Of a DNA stretch of 64,000 nt, positions 2,893 through 53,320 are shown in pieces. The DNA is taken from the NCBI RefSeq assembly GCF_001613465.1, contig NZ_BDCK01000044.1, positions 1 to 64,000 on the forward strand. Direction: 5' to 3'. The position numbers and the translations under genes are program-made. Position 1 is the stretch's first letter. The number at the start of each line of letters is the position of its first letter. This DNA comes from Nocardia niwae NBRC 108934 = DSM 45340. Lineage in GTDB: Bacteria > Actinomycetota > Actinomycetes > Mycobacteriales > Mycobacteriaceae. Under the pieces are notes generated by a model. The model saw nothing but the letters and a program-made list of their open reading frames with translations. It was not told the DNA's origin and searched no databases.

Positions 2893-3882
2893 TCATTGCC
2901 CCAGGCGGCTGAGCGCCTGCATGGCCTCGCGCTCGATGCGGGAGAGATCGCGGAGAATGGCGCCCGCTCGGCTGAGGGACTGGGTGTCGCCTGATTCACC
3001 GGCTTGTGCGACCAGTGCCGCGACTTCCGTCCACAGGGCGGCTGCCTCGGTGTACAACTCGTGGCCGGTGCGCAGGTGGGGGCTGTCGAGCGTCCGCGTG
3101 CATTCGGCGAGGAAGTCGCGATAGAAGTTACGGAACAGGGCGCCGCCGGTCCCCGCCTCCTCCATCAAGAGGGCAGCCTGCGTCAAATCCCGCCGCGGGT
3201 CGTCGGTCCGCCGGAACCAGGTGGGCACCAGCTTGCCCGCCTTCTCGATGCCCCGATAGCCGAGGTTGGCGATGGGCGGGTCGAGGAAGGCGCGGGCGCA
3301 GGCGGTGATGGCCGGGATGATCCGGCTGCGGGCGGACGGCGGGTTCCTCGGGGCGGTGAGGGTGAAGGAACGATGTTTGGCGGTCATCGGGCCGCGCGCG
3401 GCTCTGGCCTGGGCGAGGCTGGTCAGGCTGGTGGACACCGTTCCGCCTTGCTGATCGGTGTCCACCAGGTAGGCGTCGTGATCGTCGTAGCCGTACAGCG
3501 CGACGACATGACCACCGAAGTGCACCTTCGACCCGAAATAGTCCAGGTGGTAACTGTCGAGCTGCAGTCCGACGGGGTGACCTGCGTCGACGGGACCGAC
3601 TACGTTCTCCCACGCTCGGCGGGGGGAGGTGGTCTCCTGGACCGAGAGCTCCAGGCCGAGTCGGGCGGCCAGATTCCGGGTGAGATCGAAAGGCTTGACC
3701 CGTCCCCCGAGGAAGGGAAAGCCCATGGACTTGCTGTCCCAGTAGACGAAGGACAGGCCGGAGCCGAGACCGAAGAGCATCGGCTCGGACAGGTGGATTC
3801 CCTGGTGCCGCAGCAGCACTCCCAGTGTTGTCGTCTCGCAATGCTGGGCGCCGCGGGCATCGATGTCTCGCACAGCGGTCAT
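2893..3882 (-). CDS. BtrH N-terminal domain / DUF4872 protein
   Basis: A 329-residue protein opening with a BtrH-type domain (about residues 10-150; QHCETTTLGVLLRHQGIHLS with Cys15) and continuing into a DUF4872-like second half (about 170-320). BtrH in butirosin biosynthesis moves an acyl chain from an acyl carrier protein to an aminoglycoside; the early Cys is the conserved candidate nucleophile of this papain-like fold. Longer starts at 3987 and 3930 are in frame, but AGGAGAAAGGA upstream of ATG 3882 fits best. It is divergent from the PLP decarboxylase at 4130. No carrier protein or sugar genes lie nearby, so the substrate is unknown. Confidence 0.75.
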   Translation of the reverse strand: MTAVRDIDARGAQHCETTTLGVLLRHQGIHLSEPMLFGLGSGLSFVYWDSKSMGFPFLGGRVKPFDLTRNLAARLGLELSVQETTSPRRAWENVVGPVDAGHPVGLQLDSYHLDYFGSKVHFGGHVVALYGYDDHDAYLVDTDQQGGTVSTSLTSLAQARAARGPMTAKHRSFTLTAPRNPPSARSRIIPAITACARAFLDPPIANLGYRGIEKAGKLVPTWFRRTDDPRRDLTQAALLMEEAGTGGALFRNFYRDFLAECTRTLDSPHLRTGHELYTEAAALWTEVAALVAQAGESGDTQSLSRAGAILRDLSRIEREAMQALSRLGQ

Positions 3883-4129
3883 TCCATTCCTTTCTCCTGG
3901 CGCAGAATCGTCGAAGAGCGTTGCCACCATGGTGGGCTCTCCCGTGGCGGGAGAGTCCACCGGCCGGACTCGGGATGCCGGGCTCATCGGCGCGGCAGCA
4001 GTGGGGCCGCCGCGACTTCCGGCACCGGCTAGGAATTCGATCTACGGCGGGGCACAATGATCGCAGGGATGAATGTTCGAGGGTGATCTGTCGTGAGCGA
4101 CTGGTCATTTCGCCCACCGATGGAGGGGC

Positions 4130-6979
4130 GTGACTAACGACATGCATCGAGACGGCGAACGCCCGAAAGGGCTTTCTGTTTCCGCGTTGGCGGCGGTGGC
4201 GAACCCGTCGTACTCGCGAATCGACACTTGGAATCTGCTGGACGACGCGTGCCGCCGGCTCGCCGATGTCAACAGTGCCGGGCTGGACACCACCCACGAA
4301 GCCGCCCGGGTGCGCCGCCTCCTCGACCGCCTCGGCGCCTACGAGCGGTACTGGCTGTACCCGGGCGCGGGGCGGCTGGCGGCGTTTCGCGGATATCTCG
4401 CCGATCTCGCGACGGTGCGGCTCACCGACGAAGTGTCGCTGGCCGTGCGCCTGCTCTCCGAGTACGGCGACCGCGCGGCGTTGTTCGACACCTCGGCCCA
4501 GCTGGCCGAACAGGAACTCGTGGCCCGGGCCAAGCAGCAGCAGTTCTACACCGTCTTGCTCGGCGACGATTCCCCGCCCGAGGCGCCCGAGAGCCTGGCG
4601 GAGAGCCTCCGGGCCCTGCGCGAACCGTCGGACGACGTGCAATTCGAGTTGCTCGTCGTGGCCAGCATCGAGGACGCCATCACCGCCGTCGCCCTGAACG
4701 GCGAGATCCAGGCGGCGATCATCCGGCACGATCTCCCGCTCCGCTCGCGCGACCGGGTGCCGTTGATGACCACGTTGCTCGGCGCCAACGACGGCGTGGT
4801 CGTGACCGACCGCGCCCACGACTGGGTCGAATGCGGCGAGTGGATCAGAAAGCTGCGGCCCCATATCGACCTGTATCTGCTCACCGACGAGTCGATCGCG
4901 GCGGAGACCGAAGCCGAGCCGGACGTCTACGATCGCACGTTCTATCGGCTCAACGACGCCACCGACCTGCACAGCACAGTGCTCGCAGGCATCCGGAGCC
5001 GATACGCCACGCCGTTTTTCGACGCGCTGCGCGCCTACGCGGCCGCGCCGGTCGGCCAGTTCCACGCCCTTCCCGTCGCGCGGGGCGCCAGCATCTTCAA
5101 CTCCAAGTCGCTGCAGGACATGGGCGAGTTCTACGGCCGGAACATCTTCATGGCCGAGACGTCGTCCACCTCCGGCGGGCTGGACTCCCTGCTGGACCCG
5201 CACGGCAACATCAGGGTGGCGATGGACAAAGCCGCCGAGACGTGGTGTGCCGACCAGACGTACTTCGTGACCAATGGGACGTCCACCGCGAACAAGATCG
5301 TCGTGCAGGCCCTGACCCGGCCGGGCGACATCGTTCTGATCGACCGCAACTGCCATAAGTCGCACCACTACGGCCTGGTGCTCGCCGGGGCGTACCCGCT
5401 GTATCTGGACGCCTACCCGCTCGAACAGTTCGCGATCTACGGAGCCGTGTCCCTGCACACCATCAAGAAGGCGCTGCTGGATCTCGAGGCGGCCGGTCAA
5501 CTGGACCGGGTGCGCATGCTTCTGCTGACCAACTGCACGTTCGACGGCATCGTCTACAACCCGCGGCGCGTGATGGAGGAGGTCCTGGCGATCAAGCCGG
5601 ACATCTGCTTCCTGTGGGACGAGGCGTGGTACGCGTTCGCGACCGCGGTGCCGTGGGCACGCCAGCGAACCGCGATGGTTGCCGCCGAGCAACTGGCCTC
5701 GTCGCTGGCCGCGCCAGGGTACGCCGAGGAATACCGCCGGTGGCATGCGTCGATGCGGGGCGTCGACCGCGCGGAGTGGAGCAACCACCGGCTGCTTCCC
5801 GATCCCGAGCGGGCGCGCGTCCGCGTGTACGCGACGCACTCCACCCACAAATCGCTGTCCGCGCTCCGGCAGGCGTCGATGATCCACGTCCGCGACCAGG
5901 ATTTCAAAGCTCTCGCCCGCGAGGCGTTCGCCGAGGCGTTCTTGACCCACACCTCGACCTCGCCGAACCAGCAACTGCTGGCGTCGCTGGACTTGGCCCG
6001 CAGGCAGGTCGACATCGAGGGCTTCCAGCTGGTCCGGCACGCCTACGACATGGCGCTGGTGTTCCGCCACCGCGTCCGCAAAGACCGGCTGATCGGCAAG
6101 TGGTTCCGCATCCTCGACGAGGACGACCTGGTGCCCGACGAGTTCCGGCCGTCGGAAGTCAGCTCGTACCGTCAGGTCAGGCAGGGCGGCCTGGCCGAGT
6201 GGAACGAGGCTTGGCGCTCGGATCAGTTCGTGCTCGACCCGACCCGGGTCACCCTGTTCATCGGCAATACCGGCATGAACGGGTTCGATTTCCGCGAGAA
6301 GATCTTGATGGACCGATTCGGCATCCAGATCAACAAGACCTCGATCAACAGCGTGCTGTTGATCTTCACCATCGGCGTCACCTGGTCGAGTGTGCATTAC
6401 CTGCTCGACGTACTGCGTCGGATCGCGGCCGATTTCGAGAGCAGCCGCAGCGCGGCGGGCAAGGCCGATCGCGCCCTGCAACAGCGCCGGATCGACGAGA
6501 TCACCAAGGAATTGCCCGCACTCCCCGACTTCAGCGAGTTCGACAGCGCGTTTCGTCCCGAGAGGGCCAGCTCCTTCGGTGACATGCGAGCGGCCTTCTA
6601 CGCCGGATACGAGGAGTCCGACCGCGAACATGTCCTGCTCGGCGACGCCGGGCGACGGCTCGCCAAGGGGATGCCCCTGGTGTCCGCCACCTTCGTCGTC
6701 CCTTACCCGCCCGGCTTCCCGGTGCTGGTTCCTGGGCAGGTGGTTTCGACGGAGATCCTGTATTTCCTGGCCGAGCTCGACGTCAAGGAGATTCACGGAT
6801 ACAACCCAGACCTCGGGTTGTCGGTCTTCACCGAGGCCGCGCTCGCGCGGTTGGCCGCGGCCCGGCACGCGAGCACCGTGAGATCCGATGGGATGCCGGA
6901 CACAGCTCTGCCGCCCGCGAACCACCGTCCGGCATCGCGCGAGCTGTCCGGCACACTTTCCGCGACCGATCGGCGCTGA
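4130..6979 (+). CDS. PLP-dependent Orn/Lys/Arg decarboxylase-family protein
   Basis: A 949-residue fold-type-I PLP enzyme related to ornithine/lysine/arginine decarboxylases. Residues about 170-300 resemble the N-terminal wing domain. The catalytic core (about 310-740) carries TNGTSTANKIV near 381, DRNCHKSHH near 405, the PLP-nitrogen Asp in DEAWYAFA (Asp497) and the Schiff-base lysine in THSTHKS (Lys574). The C-terminal domain has VPYPPGFPVLVPGQVV and KEIHGYNP. The protein is about 200 residues longer than typical inducible decarboxylases. GTG 4130 follows GGAGGGG closely; ATG 4142 is an alternative. It probably decarboxylates a basic or gamma-glutamyl-type amino acid, but the substrate is not determined. 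Confidence 0.8.
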   Translation: MTNDMHRDGERPKGLSVSALAAVANPSYSRIDTWNLLDDACRRLADVNSAGLDTTHEAARVRRLLDRLGAYERYWLYPGAGRLAAFRGYLADLATVRLTDEVSLAVRLLSEYGDRAALFDTSAQLAEQELVARAKQQQFYTVLLGDDSPPEAPESLAESLRALREPSDDVQFELLVVASIEDAITAVALNGEIQAAIIRHDLPLRSRDRVPLMTTLLGANDGVVVTDRAHDWVECGEWIRKLRPHIDLYLLTDESIAAETEAEPDVYDRTFYRLNDATDLHSTVLAGIRSRYATPFFDALRAYAAAPVGQFHALPVARGASIFNSKSLQDMGEFYGRNIFMAETSSTSGGLDSLLDPHGNIRVAMDKAAETWCADQTYFVTNGTSTANKIVVQALTRPGDIVLIDRNCHKSHHYGLVLAGAYPLYLDAYPLEQFAIYGAVSLHTIKKALLDLEAAGQLDRVRMLLLTNCTFDGIVYNPRRVMEEVLAIKPDICFLWDEAWYAFATAVPWARQRTAMVAAEQLASSLAAPGYAEEYRRWHASMRGVDRAEWSNHRLLPDPERARVRVYATHSTHKSLSALRQASMIHVRDQDFKALAREAFAEAFLTHTSTSPNQQLLASLDLARRQVDIEGFQLVRHAYDMALVFRHRVRKDRLIGKWFRILDEDDLVPDEFRPSEVSSYRQVRQGGLAEWNEAWRSDQFVLDPTRVTLFIGNTGMNGFDFREKILMDRFGIQINKTSINSVLLIFTIGVTWSSVHYLLDVLRRIAADFESSRSAAGKADRALQQRRIDEITKELPALPDFSEFDSAFRPERASSFGDMRAAFYAGYEESDREHVLLGDAGRRLAKGMPLVSATFVVPYPPGFPVLVPGQVVSTEILYFLAELDVKEIHGYNPDLGLSVFTEAALARLAAARHASTVRSDGMPDTALPPANHRPASRELSGTLSATDRR

Positions 6980-47459: not shown

Positions 47460-48368
47460 CTAGGTGAGAGTGTCCACGACGTACGCGGCGGCCTCGGCGA
47501 GGAGAGCTTGGTCGTAGGCGGCATCTCGGGCGGCCTTGCTGGACATGACGGCGACGATGAGCGGCGCGGAAGCAGGGGGCCACACGATCGCGATGTCGTT
47601 GAGCGTGCCGTAGTCACCGGTCCCGGTCTTGTCGGCCACCGTCCAGCCCTGCGGTGTGCCGGCCCGGATCCGCTGAGCCCCGGCCGTGGTCGCGTTGCGT
47701 TCCATCAGATCGCGCAGGAAGTCACGTTTGTCCGACGGCAGCGCGTCGCCCACCACGATGCGGTGGTACAGCTCGCCGAACGCTCTCGGCGACGTCGTGT
47801 CGCGCGGGTCTCCCGGGGTGGCTTCGGTGATCGCGGGCTCGATCCGGTCCATCCGGGTGACCGTGTCATCCAGACTGCGCGCGAACGCCGTCAACTCGGC
47901 GGGGCCACCGAGATCGCGCAGCAGGAGGTTGCCCGCGGTGCCGTCGCTGTAGCGGATCGCGGCGTCACACAACTGACGGATCGTCATACCCGTATCCAGG
48001 TGGCGCGGGGTGACGGAGGCGTTCTTCAGCAGGTCGTCCCGGGTGTAGGTGACGACGGTATCCAAGTGCGACCGCGGATTGCGCTGCAAGACCGCCGCCG
48101 CGGCCACGCCCTTGAACGTCGAGCAGAACGCGAATCGTTCGTCCGCGCGGTGGGCGACGATGACGCCTGTCCCCGTGGCGCGGGCATAGACGCCCAGACG
48201 GGCATCGTACTTTCGCTCCAGCTCGAGCAGGCGATCGTGGCGCTCGTCCCCCTGCACCGTGGGAGCGGAGGAGGACGGCGTCCCGGCCCTGGCGCACGCG
48301 GCCAGCGGTACGAGCGCCGCCGCGGTCAGCAGCGCACGGCGGCCGATTGCCGAGGGCGGCAATGTCAT
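47460..48368 (-). CDS. bla: class A beta-lactamase
   Basis: A 302-residue serine beta-lactamase that hydrolyses penicillins and some cephalosporins outside the membrane. The signal peptide combines a twin-arginine stretch with a lipobox (IGRRALLTAAALVPLAAC, Cys25), so it is probably lipid-anchored. Catalytic motifs are STFK (Ser83, Lys86 = Ambler 70/73), SDG (141-143 = 130-132; Gly replaces the usual Asn as in M. tuberculosis BlaC), Glu177 (= 166) in IEPAITEATPGD, and KTG in VADKTGTGDYG. Thr stands at the Ambler 170 position, usually Asn. AAAGGA sets ATG 48368. No regulator adjoins it. Confidence 0.9.
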   Translation of the reverse strand: MTLPPSAIGRRALLTAAALVPLAACARAGTPSSSAPTVQGDERHDRLLELERKYDARLGVYARATGTGVIVAHRADERFAFCSTFKGVAAAAVLQRNPRSHLDTVVTYTRDDLLKNASVTPRHLDTGMTIRQLCDAAIRYSDGTAGNLLLRDLGGPAELTAFARSLDDTVTRMDRIEPAITEATPGDPRDTTSPRAFGELYHRIVVGDALPSDKRDFLRDLMERNATTAGAQRIRAGTPQGWTVADKTGTGDYGTLNDIAIVWPPASAPLIVAVMSSKAARDAAYDQALLAEAAAYVVDTLT

Positions 48369-48459
48369 ACGCATCCTTTCACGCGGAGCGCCGGCGCGGG
48401 GGTGAGCACCTGGCAGGCCACGGTGATTATCCTGCGTCCCCACCGACGAGAGCCCGGCG

Positions 48460-49626
48460 TCAGTGCCCGATCACGCCGCTCACTTCGTTCGGTGTGTTCG
48501 GCAGCGTGACGCTCGCCGTCTTCGCTCCGGTGGCCAGGTCGACACGGTGGACCTGTTTCGCGGCGGGGTCCGAGACGTAGGCGGTGCCGCCGCGGACGAA
48601 CAGCGCGGGCCGCGGCTTCTGCCACTCCAGCGGTTCTTGCCACGAGCCCGTGACCGGGATCGTGCGCACGACGACGCCCGCGACGGGATCGATCACATGG
48701 ATGCGGCCGTCGGTGCCCAGCACCAGCGCTTCGCCGTGTGGGCCGCGGGCCAGCGAGCGGAAGGTGTAGCTGGTGCCGAGATCGACCAGGCGCAGCGCGC
48801 CGGTGACCGTATCGATCAGCGAGACACGCTGGGGGCGTTCGAGTTCGGCGTCCTTGTCCTGCTTGTAGTCGCCGAGGACGACGGGCGAGGCCGGGCTGCC
48901 CGCCTGGTTGCCGATCCGGCCGTACTCGGTCGGACTGGCTATTTTGCCGATGACGCCGTTGCGGTAGACCAGCACGCCGTTCTCGCAGCCGATCACCACG
49001 GCCTCGCCCGCGGCCGTCGCCTCCCCGTGCACGCCGGGGCAGTCCTCGTTGCGCGCTTTCTCGGCGCGGTTCTTGTCCAGCACCACGATTCCGGTCCGCT
49101 TCTCCTCGGTGCCGAGGGTGAGGACGAGTTCGCCGTCGGCGAGTTCGATCGCGACGCCGTGGTGCGGAGCGGCGGCACGGTAGGTGGAGGTCCGCGGCTG
49201 CCCGCCGGCGAGATCGGCGGAGTCGAACGCGACGACTTCGCCGGTGCCGTCGCTGAACAGCACCGTCCGCCCGGCATGCCGGACCACGTGCCCGGGGTGG
49301 GGTCCGGGGAAGTCGGTGCCGGTGAATTCGGCGGTGGCGGCGTCGAAGACGCGGAAGCCCTCTTTGGTCGAGACGATCAGATGACGGTCGTCGCCCGCGG
49401 GGTTGAGCCGGTTGAAGCCGTCGAGTTCGACCGTGGCCGCGAGTTCGAGACCGGTTCCGTCCAGTACGTGGATCCCGCCGTCGTAGGTGATCGCGACGGG
49501 ATCGGCGATCGGTGTCGTGCGCCGGTCGTCCCGCTCCGGGGAAGCGTCGGCGCCGCAACCCGCGAGCACTACGGTCAGCAGGCCGATGAGGGCGGATGAG
49601 GTCGTGGTTCGTGATCGAACGGGCAT
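48460..49626 (-). CDS. aztD: AztD-like zinc metallochaperone lipoprotein
   Basis: A 388-residue beta-propeller lipoprotein (lipobox LAGC, Cys24). Blade-like repeats include HLIVSTKEGFRVFDAATAEF, HGVAIELADGELVLTLGTEE and EDCPGVHGEATAAGEAVVIG. The repeats and the CPGxHGEA motif resemble AztD, which stores zinc outside the membrane and passes it to AztC. It is the last gene of the divergent zinc operon, 31 bases after aztC. A second, divergent AztD-like domain is fused to the permease in the same operon. Confidence 0.8.
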   Translation of the reverse strand: MPVRSRTTTSSALIGLLTVVLAGCGADASPERDDRRTTPIADPVAITYDGGIHVLDGTGLELAATVELDGFNRLNPAGDDRHLIVSTKEGFRVFDAATAEFTGTDFPGPHPGHVVRHAGRTVLFSDGTGEVVAFDSADLAGGQPRTSTYRAAAPHHGVAIELADGELVLTLGTEEKRTGIVVLDKNRAEKARNEDCPGVHGEATAAGEAVVIGCENGVLVYRNGVIGKIASPTEYGRIGNQAGSPASPVVLGDYKQDKDAELERPQRVSLIDTVTGALRLVDLGTSYTFRSLARGPHGEALVLGTDGRIHVIDPVAGVVVRTIPVTGSWQEPLEWQKPRPALFVRGGTAYVSDPAAKQVHRVDLATGAKTASVTLPNTPNEVSGVIGH

Positions 49627-49657: not shown

Positions 49658-50575
49658 CTAGGGAGCAGCGAGGCCGCGCACGATCGCCTCGGTGTTGGCC
49701 CGCATCATTTCCAGGTAGGTGCCCGCACCCCCGCCCGGTTCGGTGAGCGATTCGGAGTGCAGGGAGATCACCTGCACGCGCACACCGGCTTGCTCGGCCA
49801 GCACGCGGGCCAAGCGGTCGGGTTGGGAGGAGTCGGCGAAGATCGCGCCCACCCCGGCGGCCCGGATGGTCCCGGCGAGGGCGGAGAGATCCGACGGGCT
49901 CGGTGAGGCGAGCGTGGTTCCGCCCGGGATCACGGCGCCGACCACCTCGAAGCCGAATCGCCGTGCCAGGTAACCGAAAACATGGTGGTTGGTGACCAGC
50001 TTCCGCCGCTCGGCGGGGATCGTCGCGAACCGCTCGGTCATCCAGCGCTCGAGCCGATCGAGTTCGGCCAGGTAGCGATCGGCGCCGGCCCGGACGGCCG
50101 CGGCGTCCGCGCCGGGCACCCGGCCGACGATCCGGTCCCGGATGACCTCCACCGCCGTGCGTACGCGGCCCGGGTCGGTCCAGAAGTGCGGGTCCGGCCT
50201 CCCGTCCGCGTCCTCCGCCGTATAGCTGATCGGGTCGATCGCCGCGCCGACGGACACGCTCGCCACTCCGGCCCGCTCGGCCGCCTCGACATTGCGCAGC
50301 ACGCTCTCCTCGAGGCCCAGACCGTTGTAGACGATCAGGCTCGCGCGTTCGAGTTCGGCCGCCTGCTGGGCGGAGACGGCGAAGAAGTGCGGGTCCGCGT
50401 TCGCCGGCATGAGCACCGTGACCTCGATCGCGTCCCCGGCGACGGCGCGGGTGAGGTCGCCGAGGATGTTCGTGGTGACGACGACCCGGTCGCGGTCCGC
50501 GCCGGCGATCGAGCATCCGGTCAGCGCGAGCAGCGCGACGACGACCGGCGCGAACCATCGGGCAGCGTGTCTCAT
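49658..50575 (-). CDS. aztC: zinc ABC transporter substrate-binding lipoprotein
   Basis: A 305-residue cluster A-I binding protein (ZnuA/AztC family). The lipobox is LTGC (Cys21). Metal ligands are visible as His63 (ADPHFF), His130 (RPDPHFW), His197 or His198 (TNHHVFGY) and Asp248 (IFADSSQPD). There is no long His-rich loop as in ZnuA; that loop is short and acidic (YTAEDADGRPDPH), as in AztC, which instead receives zinc from AztD. ATG 50575 overlaps the stop of the permease fusion by four bases. Confidence 0.88.
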   Translation of the reverse strand: MRHAARWFAPVVVALLALTGCSIAGADRDRVVVTTNILGDLTRAVAGDAIEVTVLMPANADPHFFAVSAQQAAELERASLIVYNGLGLEESVLRNVEAAERAGVASVSVGAAIDPISYTAEDADGRPDPHFWTDPGRVRTAVEVIRDRIVGRVPGADAAAVRAGADRYLAELDRLERWMTERFATIPAERRKLVTNHHVFGYLARRFGFEVVGAVIPGGTTLASPSPSDLSALAGTIRAAGVGAIFADSSQPDRLARVLAEQAGVRVQVISLHSESLTEPGGGAGTYLEMMRANTEAIVRGLAAP

Positions 50576-52575
50576 CGGCCGGTCTCCGCGATCGAGGTGG
50601 GCGCGATATCGAGGCGGAAGGTGCGGGCCGTGCGCAGGTTGTCGATGTAGTCGATCTCGTGGATCGCCCGTCCGGCGGGATCGTTGAGGTAGGCACGGTG
50701 TTCGTCGACCAGGATCAGCGGCGCGGGGGTGCCCTCGGGCACCGGCGCGACGAGCTGGCGCGCCGCCGCGGACTCGCGGCCGGACGCGACGTCGTAGCCG
50801 TGCAGAAAACCGTCCGCGGTGAGGGTCAGCACAGCGGCGCCCTCCCCCGCCGTGTTCGCCGCGACCACCGGCCCGGTGTCCACCAGGGTCCAGGTCTTGC
50901 TCCTGACGTCGAGCACCCACACGCCCCGGCGGCCGGCCTTGGCAACCAGCGTGGCGCTACCGGGGCGATGGAAGAACTCGACCGCGCGGTCGTCGTCCGC
51001 GGTGCCCTGCGGGTAGGGGATCTTCTCGCCGGTGAACACCGCGTTCCGCGCCGTCACCAGCAAGGCGCCGTCGGCGCAGCCGAAGACGACGCCCCGCCTG
51101 GTCACCGCCGAGCCGCGCGGATGCGGACACGGCGGCGCGAGGACCTCCGCTGGCGCGCCGTCCCGAGCCCGGACCTCGATCCGCCCACGAGCGGGCACGG
51201 CCACGAGCAGGCGCTCGGCGTACGGCACGGCGGCTCCGTCCGCGATCGCGCCGCGCTCCGTCCGCGACCCGGCGCCGAGCGCGGACCGGTCCAGCAGCGT
51301 AGTGGCACCCGTCTCGAAAACCACTGCCGTGACGGCACTGTCGGCCCGCACGGCGGATACCGGCCCACCGGTGAGTTCACCCAGATCGCGGGCGGGTGCG
51401 CGGTAATAGTGCACGTGGTCTCCGTGGTCGACCGTCCACGTGCCCGCGTCCACGATTCGCACCGCGTCGCGGGCGGACAGGAACGCGAAACGCCCGTCGG
51501 CGGTCACCCGGTGGACACCGGTCATCCGGCCGAGTTCCTGGATCTCCTCGGTGACGAGGTCGATCACCCGCACGGCGCCGGTCGCGGTGTCGGCGACGAC
51601 GAGACGCGGTTGCGCCTCGCCGGTCTCCTCCGCGCCCGCCACATACCCGTGCGACACCGGTGCGGCGGGCGCGGATTCACCTGTACCGCAGCCGATCAGG
51701 GGCATCAGTGCAACGAGCACCAGGGCGAGGGCCTGCGGTTTCGGGGTCATCCGGAGGGAGCGGATCCGGTCTCGTAGCCAGGACGACAGCGCCGACACGA
51801 AGAACAGGGCGACGGCGGTCGCCGCGATGGTCGCCCCCGCGGCGGTGCGCGCGTGCCACGAGATCAGCAGCCCGGCGAAGGTGGCCAGCGCGCCGAGCGC
51901 CGCGGCGGTGAGCATGATGAGCGGGATGCGGTGGACCCAGTAGACAGCGGCCGCGGGCGGGGCGATGAGCAGGCCGAAGACCAGCAGCGTGCCGACGATG
52001 TGGAACGACGCGACGATCGCCAGCGTCACCAGGCCGATCAGCGCCGCGTTCGCCACGCGGGGGCGCAGTCCGAGGGTGTGCGCCGTGCGCGGGTCGAAGG
52101 TCGACGCGACGAACGCCCGGTAGCCCAGCAGCGAGATCGCCGCCGCGAGCACCGAAGCCGCCGCCAGATACCACAGGTCCCGGGCGCCGACGGCGAGGAC
52201 GTCACCGAAGAGGAAGCCGGTCAGGTCGACCGCGAACGAGGGTGAACGCGACACGATGATCACACCCGTCGACAGCATCCCGACGAACAGCAATCCGATG
52301 CCGGTGTCCGCGGCGAACCTGGTCCCCCGCCCGAGCACCGAGACCCCTACCGCCATCGCCGCGGCGCTGAAGGCCGCGCCCAGCAACAGGTTTCCGCCGA
52401 GCAGCGCGGCGATCGCGACTCCGGGCAGCATGCCGTGCGCCATCGCGTCGCTGAGAAACGCCATGCCGCGCACCACCACCCAGGTGCCCGCCAGCGCGCA
52501 CAGGCACGAGACGAGCAATCCGCCCCACAACGCCCGCTGCACGAACGACACCTCGAACGGGGCCAACCACTCCAT
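50572..52575 (-). CDS. aztB: zinc ABC permease fused to an AztD-like domain
   Basis: One uninterrupted 667-residue frame. Residues 1-275 are a ZnuB/AztB-type permease with eight to nine helices (VVVRGMAFLSDAMAHGMLPG, SFHIVGTLLVFGLLIAPPAA). Met276 then begins what looks like a lipoprotein signal (TPKPQALALVLVALMPLIGC, Cys296). It is followed by an AztD-like propeller with His-rich DHGDHVHYYRAP and CPHPRGSAVTRRGVVFGCAD. No ribosome site precedes Met276, so fusion is likelier than two genes. The former signal helix would put the propeller outside the membrane. Expression should be Zur-controlled from 52591-52609. Confidence 0.82.
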   Translation of the reverse strand: MEWLAPFEVSFVQRALWGGLLVSCLCALAGTWVVVRGMAFLSDAMAHGMLPGVAIAALLGGNLLLGAAFSAAAMAVGVSVLGRGTRFAADTGIGLLFVGMLSTGVIIVSRSPSFAVDLTGFLFGDVLAVGARDLWYLAAASVLAAAISLLGYRAFVASTFDPRTAHTLGLRPRVANAALIGLVTLAIVASFHIVGTLLVFGLLIAPPAAAVYWVHRIPLIMLTAAALGALATFAGLLISWHARTAAGATIAATAVALFFVSALSSWLRDRIRSLRMTPKPQALALVLVALMPLIGCGTGESAPAAPVSHGYVAGAEETGEAQPRLVVADTATGAVRVIDLVTEEIQELGRMTGVHRVTADGRFAFLSARDAVRIVDAGTWTVDHGDHVHYYRAPARDLGELTGGPVSAVRADSAVTAVVFETGATTLLDRSALGAGSRTERGAIADGAAVPYAERLLVAVPARGRIEVRARDGAPAEVLAPPCPHPRGSAVTRRGVVFGCADGALLVTARNAVFTGEKIPYPQGTADDDRAVEFFHRPGSATLVAKAGRRGVWVLDVRSKTWTLVDTGPVVAANTAGEGAAVLTLTADGFLHGYDVASGRESAAARQLVAPVPEGTPAPLILVDEHRAYLNDPAGRAIHEIDYIDNLRTARTFRLDIAPTSIAETGR

Positions 52576-52590
52576 GACGCAGCACTCTAC

Positions 52591-52609
52591 AATGATAACG
52601 GTTTTCATT
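52591..52609. promoter_or_regulatory. Zur box between aztA and aztB
   Basis: AATGATAACGGTTTTCATT is a 19-bp near-palindrome (one mismatch between arms). It closely resembles actinobacterial Zur sites (TGaAAAtCatTTTCA type). It lies in the 58-base gap between the divergent aztB and aztA starts, so Zn-Zur would repress both directions. Confidence 0.75.
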
Positions 52610-52633: not shown

Positions 52634-53320
52634 ATGCCGCCGCCCGCTGTCCACGTCGCCGAAGTGACGGCCGGTTACCGAGGACGTCCGGTGCTGCGCG
52701 AGTTCACCGCCGCGATCCCGGCCGGGCAGGTGACCGCACTCGTCGGCCCCAACGGTTCGGGCAAGTCCACCCTGCTCGGCGTCCTTGCCGGGGTCATCAC
52801 GCCCACCGGGGGAACCGTGCGCCGGGAACATCTGCGCCGCCCGGCATTCGTCGTGCAACACAGCACCGTTCCCGCGACCCTGCCGATCACCGTCCGCGAG
52901 ACGGTCGCCATGGGACGCTGGGCACACCGCGGCGCGTGGCGGCGGCTCACCCGGCAGGATCGCGCCGTCGTGGTCGCATGCCTGGACCGGATGGCCATCG
53001 CCGACCTGGCCGAGCGGCGGCTCGACACCCTCTCCGGAGGTCAGCGTCAACGTGCGCTGCTGGCACAGGCTCTCGCCCACGAGTCCGACTTGCTCCTGCT
53101 CGACGAACCGGCCACCGGCCTGGACTCGGCCGCACGGCAGGAGATCAACGACGCGATCCACCTCATTCGGGCGCAGGGCGTGACGGTTGTCCACGCGACG
53201 CACAGCTACGAGGACGCCCTGCGCGCCGACCACTGCCTGCTGCTGCGGGACGGCCGCAGCGCAGGCGAGGGCGATCCGCGCACCGTCCTGCGCGGGCAGC
53301 TCCCCTCAGTGTCGGACTAG
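52634..53320 (+). CDS. aztA: zinc ABC transporter ATPase
   Basis: A 228-residue ATPase of the ZnuC/AztA type. Walker A is GPNGSGKST, the Q-loop lies in FVVQHSTVPATLPITVRETV, the signature is LSGGQRQRAL, Walker B is LLLLDEPATGLD and the H-loop is HATHSYEDAL. It energises the AztB channel at the cytoplasmic face. CGGAGC precedes ATG 52634. It is divergent from the permease-fusion operon and shares the Zur box with it. Confidence 0.9.
   Translation: MPPPAVHVAEVTAGYRGRPVLREFTAAIPAGQVTALVGPNGSGKSTLLGVLAGVITPTGGTVRREHLRRPAFVVQHSTVPATLPITVRETVAMGRWAHRGAWRRLTRQDRAVVVACLDRMAIADLAERRLDTLSGGQRQRALLAQALAHESDLLLLDEPATGLDSAARQEINDAIHLIRAQGVTVVHATHSYEDALRADHCLLLRDGRSAGEGDPRTVLRGQLPSVSD

Follow-up and report, generated by a model that had tools for sequence, protein, structure and literature searches.

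The gene aztB-D2 of Nocardia niwae was found to be a genuine fusion of the permease AztB with an AztD-like β-propeller (D2) inside a zinc operon, and alignments showed that the two zinc sites of one chaperone are now split between D2 and a separate AztD (D1) of the same operon. The best explanation, with a probability of roughly 0.6, is that aztB-D2 carries two proteins in one gene, made as one chain, exported by an internal signal and most likely processed by Lgt and LspA, with D2 acting as the site-2 chaperone and D1 as the site-1 chaperone. Cleavage, topology, zinc binding and the direction of zinc transfer are the parts of this explanation that we infer. The components were already known; the zinc-site split and the permease-lipoprotein gene appear new. 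No description of an AztB-AztD fusion was found in the open full-text literature on AztD, AztB and AztABCD (open-licence papers), in line with the first-pass annotation, which knew of none. No site partition between AztDs was found in the same open-licence literature, which held the work on Paracoccus and Citrobacter and passing mentions.

The fused gene and its zinc operon

The reading frame of aztB-D2 (50572-52575, minus strand, within the window, that is, the whole 64,000-nucleotide stretch analysed) encoded 667 residues with no stop inside. The permease domain comprised residues 1-268 (51772-52575, minus strand), of which residues 4-254 matched the AztB model NF040871 with 360 bits (cut-off 280) as well as PF00950. 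Its matches in the PDB were PsaC (7kyp/7kyo) and ZnuB (9oko) by sequence and PsaC by fold. The permease was followed by an internal lipoprotein-type signal (51688-51777, minus strand), which consisted of the positive stretch WLRDRIRSLRMTPKP and a hydrophobic run to the lipobox L-I-G-C296; the codon of Cys296, the predicted site of lipidation and of signal peptidase II cleavage, occupied 51688-51690. The remaining 371 residues (297-667; 50575-51687, minus strand) formed the propeller D2. Residues 327-664 scored only 69.8 bits against the AztD model NF038015, below its cut-off of 400, and the score was rejected as a ground for naming D2 an AztD; D2 is therefore called AztD-like. An AlphaFold model of the fused protein was built from an input of 52 homologous fusions and had a modest overall confidence (pTM 0.59). 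The top PDB matches of its propeller part were the AztD structures 6cmk, 6n01 and 6ck1, with 6cmk and 6ck1 the closest, and D2 combined this predicted AztD fold with an invariant disulfide pair, Cys483/Cys500. The unbroken run from the AztB channel into an AztD-like propeller, as well as the positions of Met276, Cys296 and the motif DHGDHVHYY (residues 383-391), had been given in the first-pass annotation and proved accurate.

The neighbouring genes encoded the other Azt proteins, all above the model cut-offs. The gene aztC (49658-50575, minus strand; NF040870, 382 bits) encoded the zinc solute-binding lipoprotein, and its ATG overlapped the stop of the fused gene (ATGA). The separate aztD anticipated by the annotation was located at 48460-49626 (minus strand; NF038015, 493 bits) and encoded the lipoprotein D1, whose AlphaFold model was closest to structure 6cmk. 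The ATPase gene aztA (52634-53320, plus strand; NF040873, 268 bits) was divergent. A perfect palindrome-type match, AATGATAACGGTTTTCATT, lay between aztA and aztB-D2 (52591-52609, plus strand), and, judged by what actinobacterial Zur sites are known to look like, it is a putative Zur box. It was the sole match within the window, where 0 were expected, and a Zur-like palindrome was kept upstream of the fused genes in relatives. The rest of the genome held a single other near match with at most 2 mismatches (C1:87789-87807, locus L276), upstream of a gene for a CobW/COG0523-type GTPase, a usual kind of Zur target. The palindrome and its conservation fit a Zur-type promoter, and the operon is a predicted member of the Zur regulon. 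Beyond aztD, after 16 bases and in the same orientation, began a class A β-lactamase-like lipoprotein gene (47460-48443, minus strand) with STFK and KTG motifs in its translation; it may share the zinc operon transcript. The same genome also encoded two more ABC-3-type metal permeases (C17:5565-6329 and C32:84986-85741), which were 33% and 30% identical to AztB, respectively.

Conservation, translation and repeated origin of the fusion

Matches to the fused protein were found in 118 of 150 genomes of the genus, some of them solely through other metal permeases. The full-length matches in the genus were 59-92% identical, and most were one open frame carrying the fusion. The nearest genome was 92% identical across residues 1-667 without interruption; this unbroken frame, together with the approximately 106 distinct fused loci, ruled out a sequencing error or a missed stop. 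Homologous fusions are thus common, being present in about 106 distinct genomes, which comprised most Nocardia, every Lentzea and Saccharothrix match, Amycolatopsis thermalba, A. tucumanensis, Prauserella shujinwangii and some genomes of a second genus in the same family as Nocardia, where 13 of 148 matched over nearly the whole fused protein. The 106 are fused loci in distinct genomes; the 146 loci on which the lipobox statistics below are based count some of these genomes again, through about 40 Nocardia records entered under public names. The fusion was absent from the matches in A. rubida, other Prauserella, Streptomyces, Kribbella, Pseudonocardia and Microtetraspora. Two genomes filed in the genus Nocardia had the operon unfused: L033 (genome G139) encoded a single both-site AztD, and L034 (genome G025) a site-split pair of D2 and D1. 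One locus of the second genus (L123, genome G481; 3318-6242) had a 975-residue open frame running through AztB, D2 and AztC, with an abnormal D2 C-terminus; it is either a triple fusion or a frameshift or assembly error.

The start signals around the propeller were consistent with translation as one chain. No ATG with a Shine-Dalgarno-like site was found near the internal signal among 145 loci. Any start codon combined with a Shine-Dalgarno-like motif of at least 4 bases was found there in three of the 145, and 41 had no candidate start at all. Independent translation of D2 from Met276 is unlikely, because no Shine-Dalgarno-like motif lay upstream of it, as the annotation had noted, and the residue was Val, Ala, Gly or another amino acid in relatives. 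In the Nocardia carnea group (L043, L045 and L047-L052), the linker between permease and signal comprised about 100-200 low-complexity residues and was always in frame. Over 48-145 aligned codons of this linker, dN/dS was about 0.6-1.2, compared with about 0.05-0.15 in AztB and about 0.1-0.2 in D2 of the same pairs, the last showing purifying selection on D2. Since these linkers were near-neutral and yet always open, D2 appears to be translated through AztB.

The fusion arose more than once. The AztB tree of the first set required at least three changes between the fused and unfused states, and a single fused clade, and with it a single origin, was rejected by the AU test (p ~4e-37). At least five changes were required in the wider set, in which the events were placed in Nocardia with Lentzea/Saccharothrix, in A. 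thermalba/tucumanensis, in P. shujinwangii, and in the second genus, the last with either one reversal or a further gain. The exact number is uncertain, some deeper branches of the wider set being weakly supported, but that it exceeds one is firm. In the unfused relatives, aztB and aztD2 abutted in most operons, with a -4 overlap of the ATGA type or a gap of less than about 50 nt, so a small indel is enough to join them. All of this, together with the near-neutral linkers, suits a neutral view, in which small indels joined the frames of translationally coupled genes by accident and without consequence, as the products are separated by processing. On processing, this view and the best explanation coincide, and what divides them is whether the fusion is of benefit. 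The neutral view is a serious possibility, though the less probable one, because the frame was kept in nearly all Nocardia genomes, and a purely neutral state should revert more.

The internal lipoprotein signal

The lipobox Cys was unchanged in 146 of 146 fused loci, an invariance that extended, in Nocardia alone, across a D2 tree measuring 18.5 substitutions per site. Position -1 of the lipobox was Gly, Ala or Ser, and position -3 was mostly Leu or Val. The uncharged hydrophobic run before the Cys measured 11-20 residues with a median of 16, equal to the median of the separate AztD signals, and the 31 residues ahead of the run were net positive in all 146 loci. The positive region, the short hydrophobic run and the lipobox Cys of an internal lipoprotein signal were thus all present, and these features point to a cleavable lipoprotein signal rather than a mere anchor. 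The positive charge of the permease tail and the permease fold place the permease C-terminus most likely in the cytoplasm, which agrees with the propeller lying outside, as had been suggested from the start.

The annotation had further proposed that the chaperone is tethered directly to its channel. In that case the fusion would stay intact, the internal helix would serve as a signal anchor, and the permanently tethered D2 would deliver zinc to AztC at the mouth of the channel. The chain is indeed continuous, the hydrophobic stretch could cross the membrane together with flanking residues, and ABC importers with a binding protein fused to the permease are known (PMC7731109). However, an anchor needs no Cys, whereas the Cys was never lost, the run was as short as those of cleavable AztD signals, and the true binding protein, AztC, is separate. 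A lasting tether is therefore rather doubtful. The invariant Cys and the signal-like length of the run favour cleavage of a two-protein precursor by LspA at Cys296 over a permanent tether, by about two to one.

We know of no described case of LspA cleaving a signal inside a polytopic protein, and a literature search for earlier cases of processing at an internal lipobox gave nothing useful. A comparable arrangement is the cytochrome b/c1 precursor encoded by fbcH of Bradyrhizobium, in which a polytopic membrane protein and an exported protein reportedly arise from a single chain by cleavage at an internal signal; a literature search on fbcH likewise found nothing useful. The fbcH product is a respiratory enzyme cut by signal peptidase I, whereas aztB-D2 has a lipobox and belongs to zinc uptake. 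In the permease-binding-protein fusions of ABC importers, as in aztB-D2, the permease gene also encodes a domain that handles the substrate outside the cytoplasm, but that domain is a solute-binding protein, whereas aztB-D2 carries an accessory chaperone after a conserved lipobox. Streptococcal AdcA, in which a ZnuA-like domain is fused to ZinT (PMC6689063), also joins a zinc chaperone domain to a core transporter component. Unlike in aztB-D2, however, the partner in AdcA is the binding protein and not the channel, and the chaperone fold is unrelated.

The split of the zinc sites and the proposed relay

The solved AztD structure has two zinc sites: site 1 is formed by His124, His167 and His218 in the pore, and site 2 by His99, His102 and Asp104 on a hairpin together with the C-terminal His408 (PMC6689063). 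Zinc passes from Paracoccus AztD to AztC from site 2 only, and the function of site 1 was left open by the authors (PMC6689063). When the two Nocardia propellers were aligned with CkAztD, the fused one had kept site 2 (HGDHVH) and lost all of site 1, whereas D1 had kept the site-1 triad and lacked the site-2 hairpin. The site-2 motif DHGDHVHYY of D2 (51403-51429, minus strand) contributed His384, His387 and His389, which aligned with His101, His104 and Asp106 of CkAztD; the third ligand was thus His instead of Asp, and the C-terminal His of site 2 was absent. Despite the lost hairpin, 58 of the 80 D1 proteins in the Nocardia set still had His as their final residue (own end 48463-48465).

The same split recurred in 165 two-chaperone operons (106 fused and 59 unfused), a set that includes related genomes, so that the counts are not independent events. 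The His-x-x-His-x-His of site 2 was present in D2 in 165/165 and a complete site 1 in 0/165; no site-1 His remained in 157 D2 proteins, one in seven and two in one. D1, by comparison, carried the full site-1 triad in 164 of 165 and site 2 in none. The disulfide Cys pair was kept in both kinds alike, and AztDs standing alone had both zinc sites. The D1 proteins of L164 and L165, which are of the site-1 type and lack the normal site-2 hairpin, carried HGDHFH/HDDHFD motifs; these were rejected as a retained site 2, since they lie elsewhere in the sequence, in another loop near residue 200, and may be a relocated zinc site. The divergence in role that the first-pass annotation had thought probable is therefore sharper than claimed. 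Its view that D2 had gained the His-rich loop was not borne out, because the ancestry is of both-site AztDs and the loop aligns with the AztD site-2 hairpin, making it the retained half.

A tree of 117 AztD-like proteins, the root of which is uncertain owing to a long outgroup branch, contained two deep groups, the permease-side proteins and the downstream proteins. The remaining members of the permease-side group were single both-site AztDs in B-D-C operons (e.g., L033, L146 and L160), and those of the downstream group were both-site AztDs without aztABC nearby (L152-L158). An origin of D1 and D2 by recent duplication inside the operon was rejected, since they fell into two separate deep clades and both-site relatives occurred in each; the two-chaperone operon instead combined two old AztD lineages. 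The losses were parallel: the downstream group lost site 2 on at least two occasions, and the permease-side group lost site 1 twice, L145/L147 having lost it apart from the main D2 group. L150 and L151 look intermediate, in that their permease-side protein has both sites and their downstream protein already lacks site 2. The fusion followed the split, because all unfused relatives with D2 were already split.

According to the preferred two-proteins-in-one-gene explanation, zinc shortage would cause AztB-D2, AztC, D1 and AztA to be made together. The internal signal would carry the propeller across the membrane, and Lgt and LspA would most likely lipidate and cut the chain at Cys296 to give the AztB channel and a lipid-anchored D2, made one-to-one. 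Zinc bound by D1 would sit at site 1, which is labile and of high affinity, and the role of D1 is probably the capture or storage of zinc or the loading of D2. AztC would receive its zinc from site 2 of D2 and feed AztB. The transfer from D2 to AztC can hardly be a direct copy of that in Paracoccus. Paracoccus AztC needs a D-loop with three His to take zinc from AztD (PMC7463823), whereas a His D-loop was absent from every actinobacterial AztC examined, including those beside both-site AztDs. The docking must therefore differ, and the Paracoccus scheme is not simply transferable to D2 and AztC; the missing D-loop does not track the loss of site 1 from D2, since it was missing also next to both-site AztDs. 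The replaced site-2 Asp and the missing C-terminal His of D2, while most D1 still end in His, likewise argue against a direct copy. A more tentative and, as a whole, unlikely elaboration is a two-step relay, in which site-1 zinc would pass from D1 to a D2 held at a fixed ratio to the channel by the LspA cut, and the C-terminal His of D1 may complete the site of D2 in a complex. The idea that D2 is a degenerate AztD that transfers no zinc and serves the permease as a lid, in a structural or regulatory role, with D1 as sole chaperone, draws on the divergence of D2, its lost site 1 and its missing C-terminal His. It is improbable, because the site-2 His residues and the disulfide pair of D2 are invariant, D2 is under purifying selection, and D1 lacks site 2, for which alone zinc transfer has been shown.

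AztABCD of Paracoccus denitrificans and Citrobacter koseri resembles the Nocardia system in its AztA, AztB, AztC and AztD families, its zinc-controlled zinc operon, the propeller fold and the disulfide. It has, however, one unfused AztD with both sites, whereas Nocardia has two single-site AztD-like proteins, one of them joined to AztB. The AztD metallochaperone (6ck1, 6cmk; NF038015) shares its fold with both Nocardia propellers, its HGDH hairpin with D2 and its site-1 His triad with D1, and differs in that neither of them has both sites and that D2 belongs to the permease gene. Through parallel losses, natural single-site versions of each AztD site stand side by side in one operon, so that the division of labour between the sites could be read from knockouts or purified proteins without engineered mutants, and the function of site 1 becomes directly testable. 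The aztB-D2 gene is, in addition, a candidate for encoding a precursor from which a permease and a lipoprotein are released by processing at the lipobox between them, which would be a simple way to fix the ratio of chaperone to channel.
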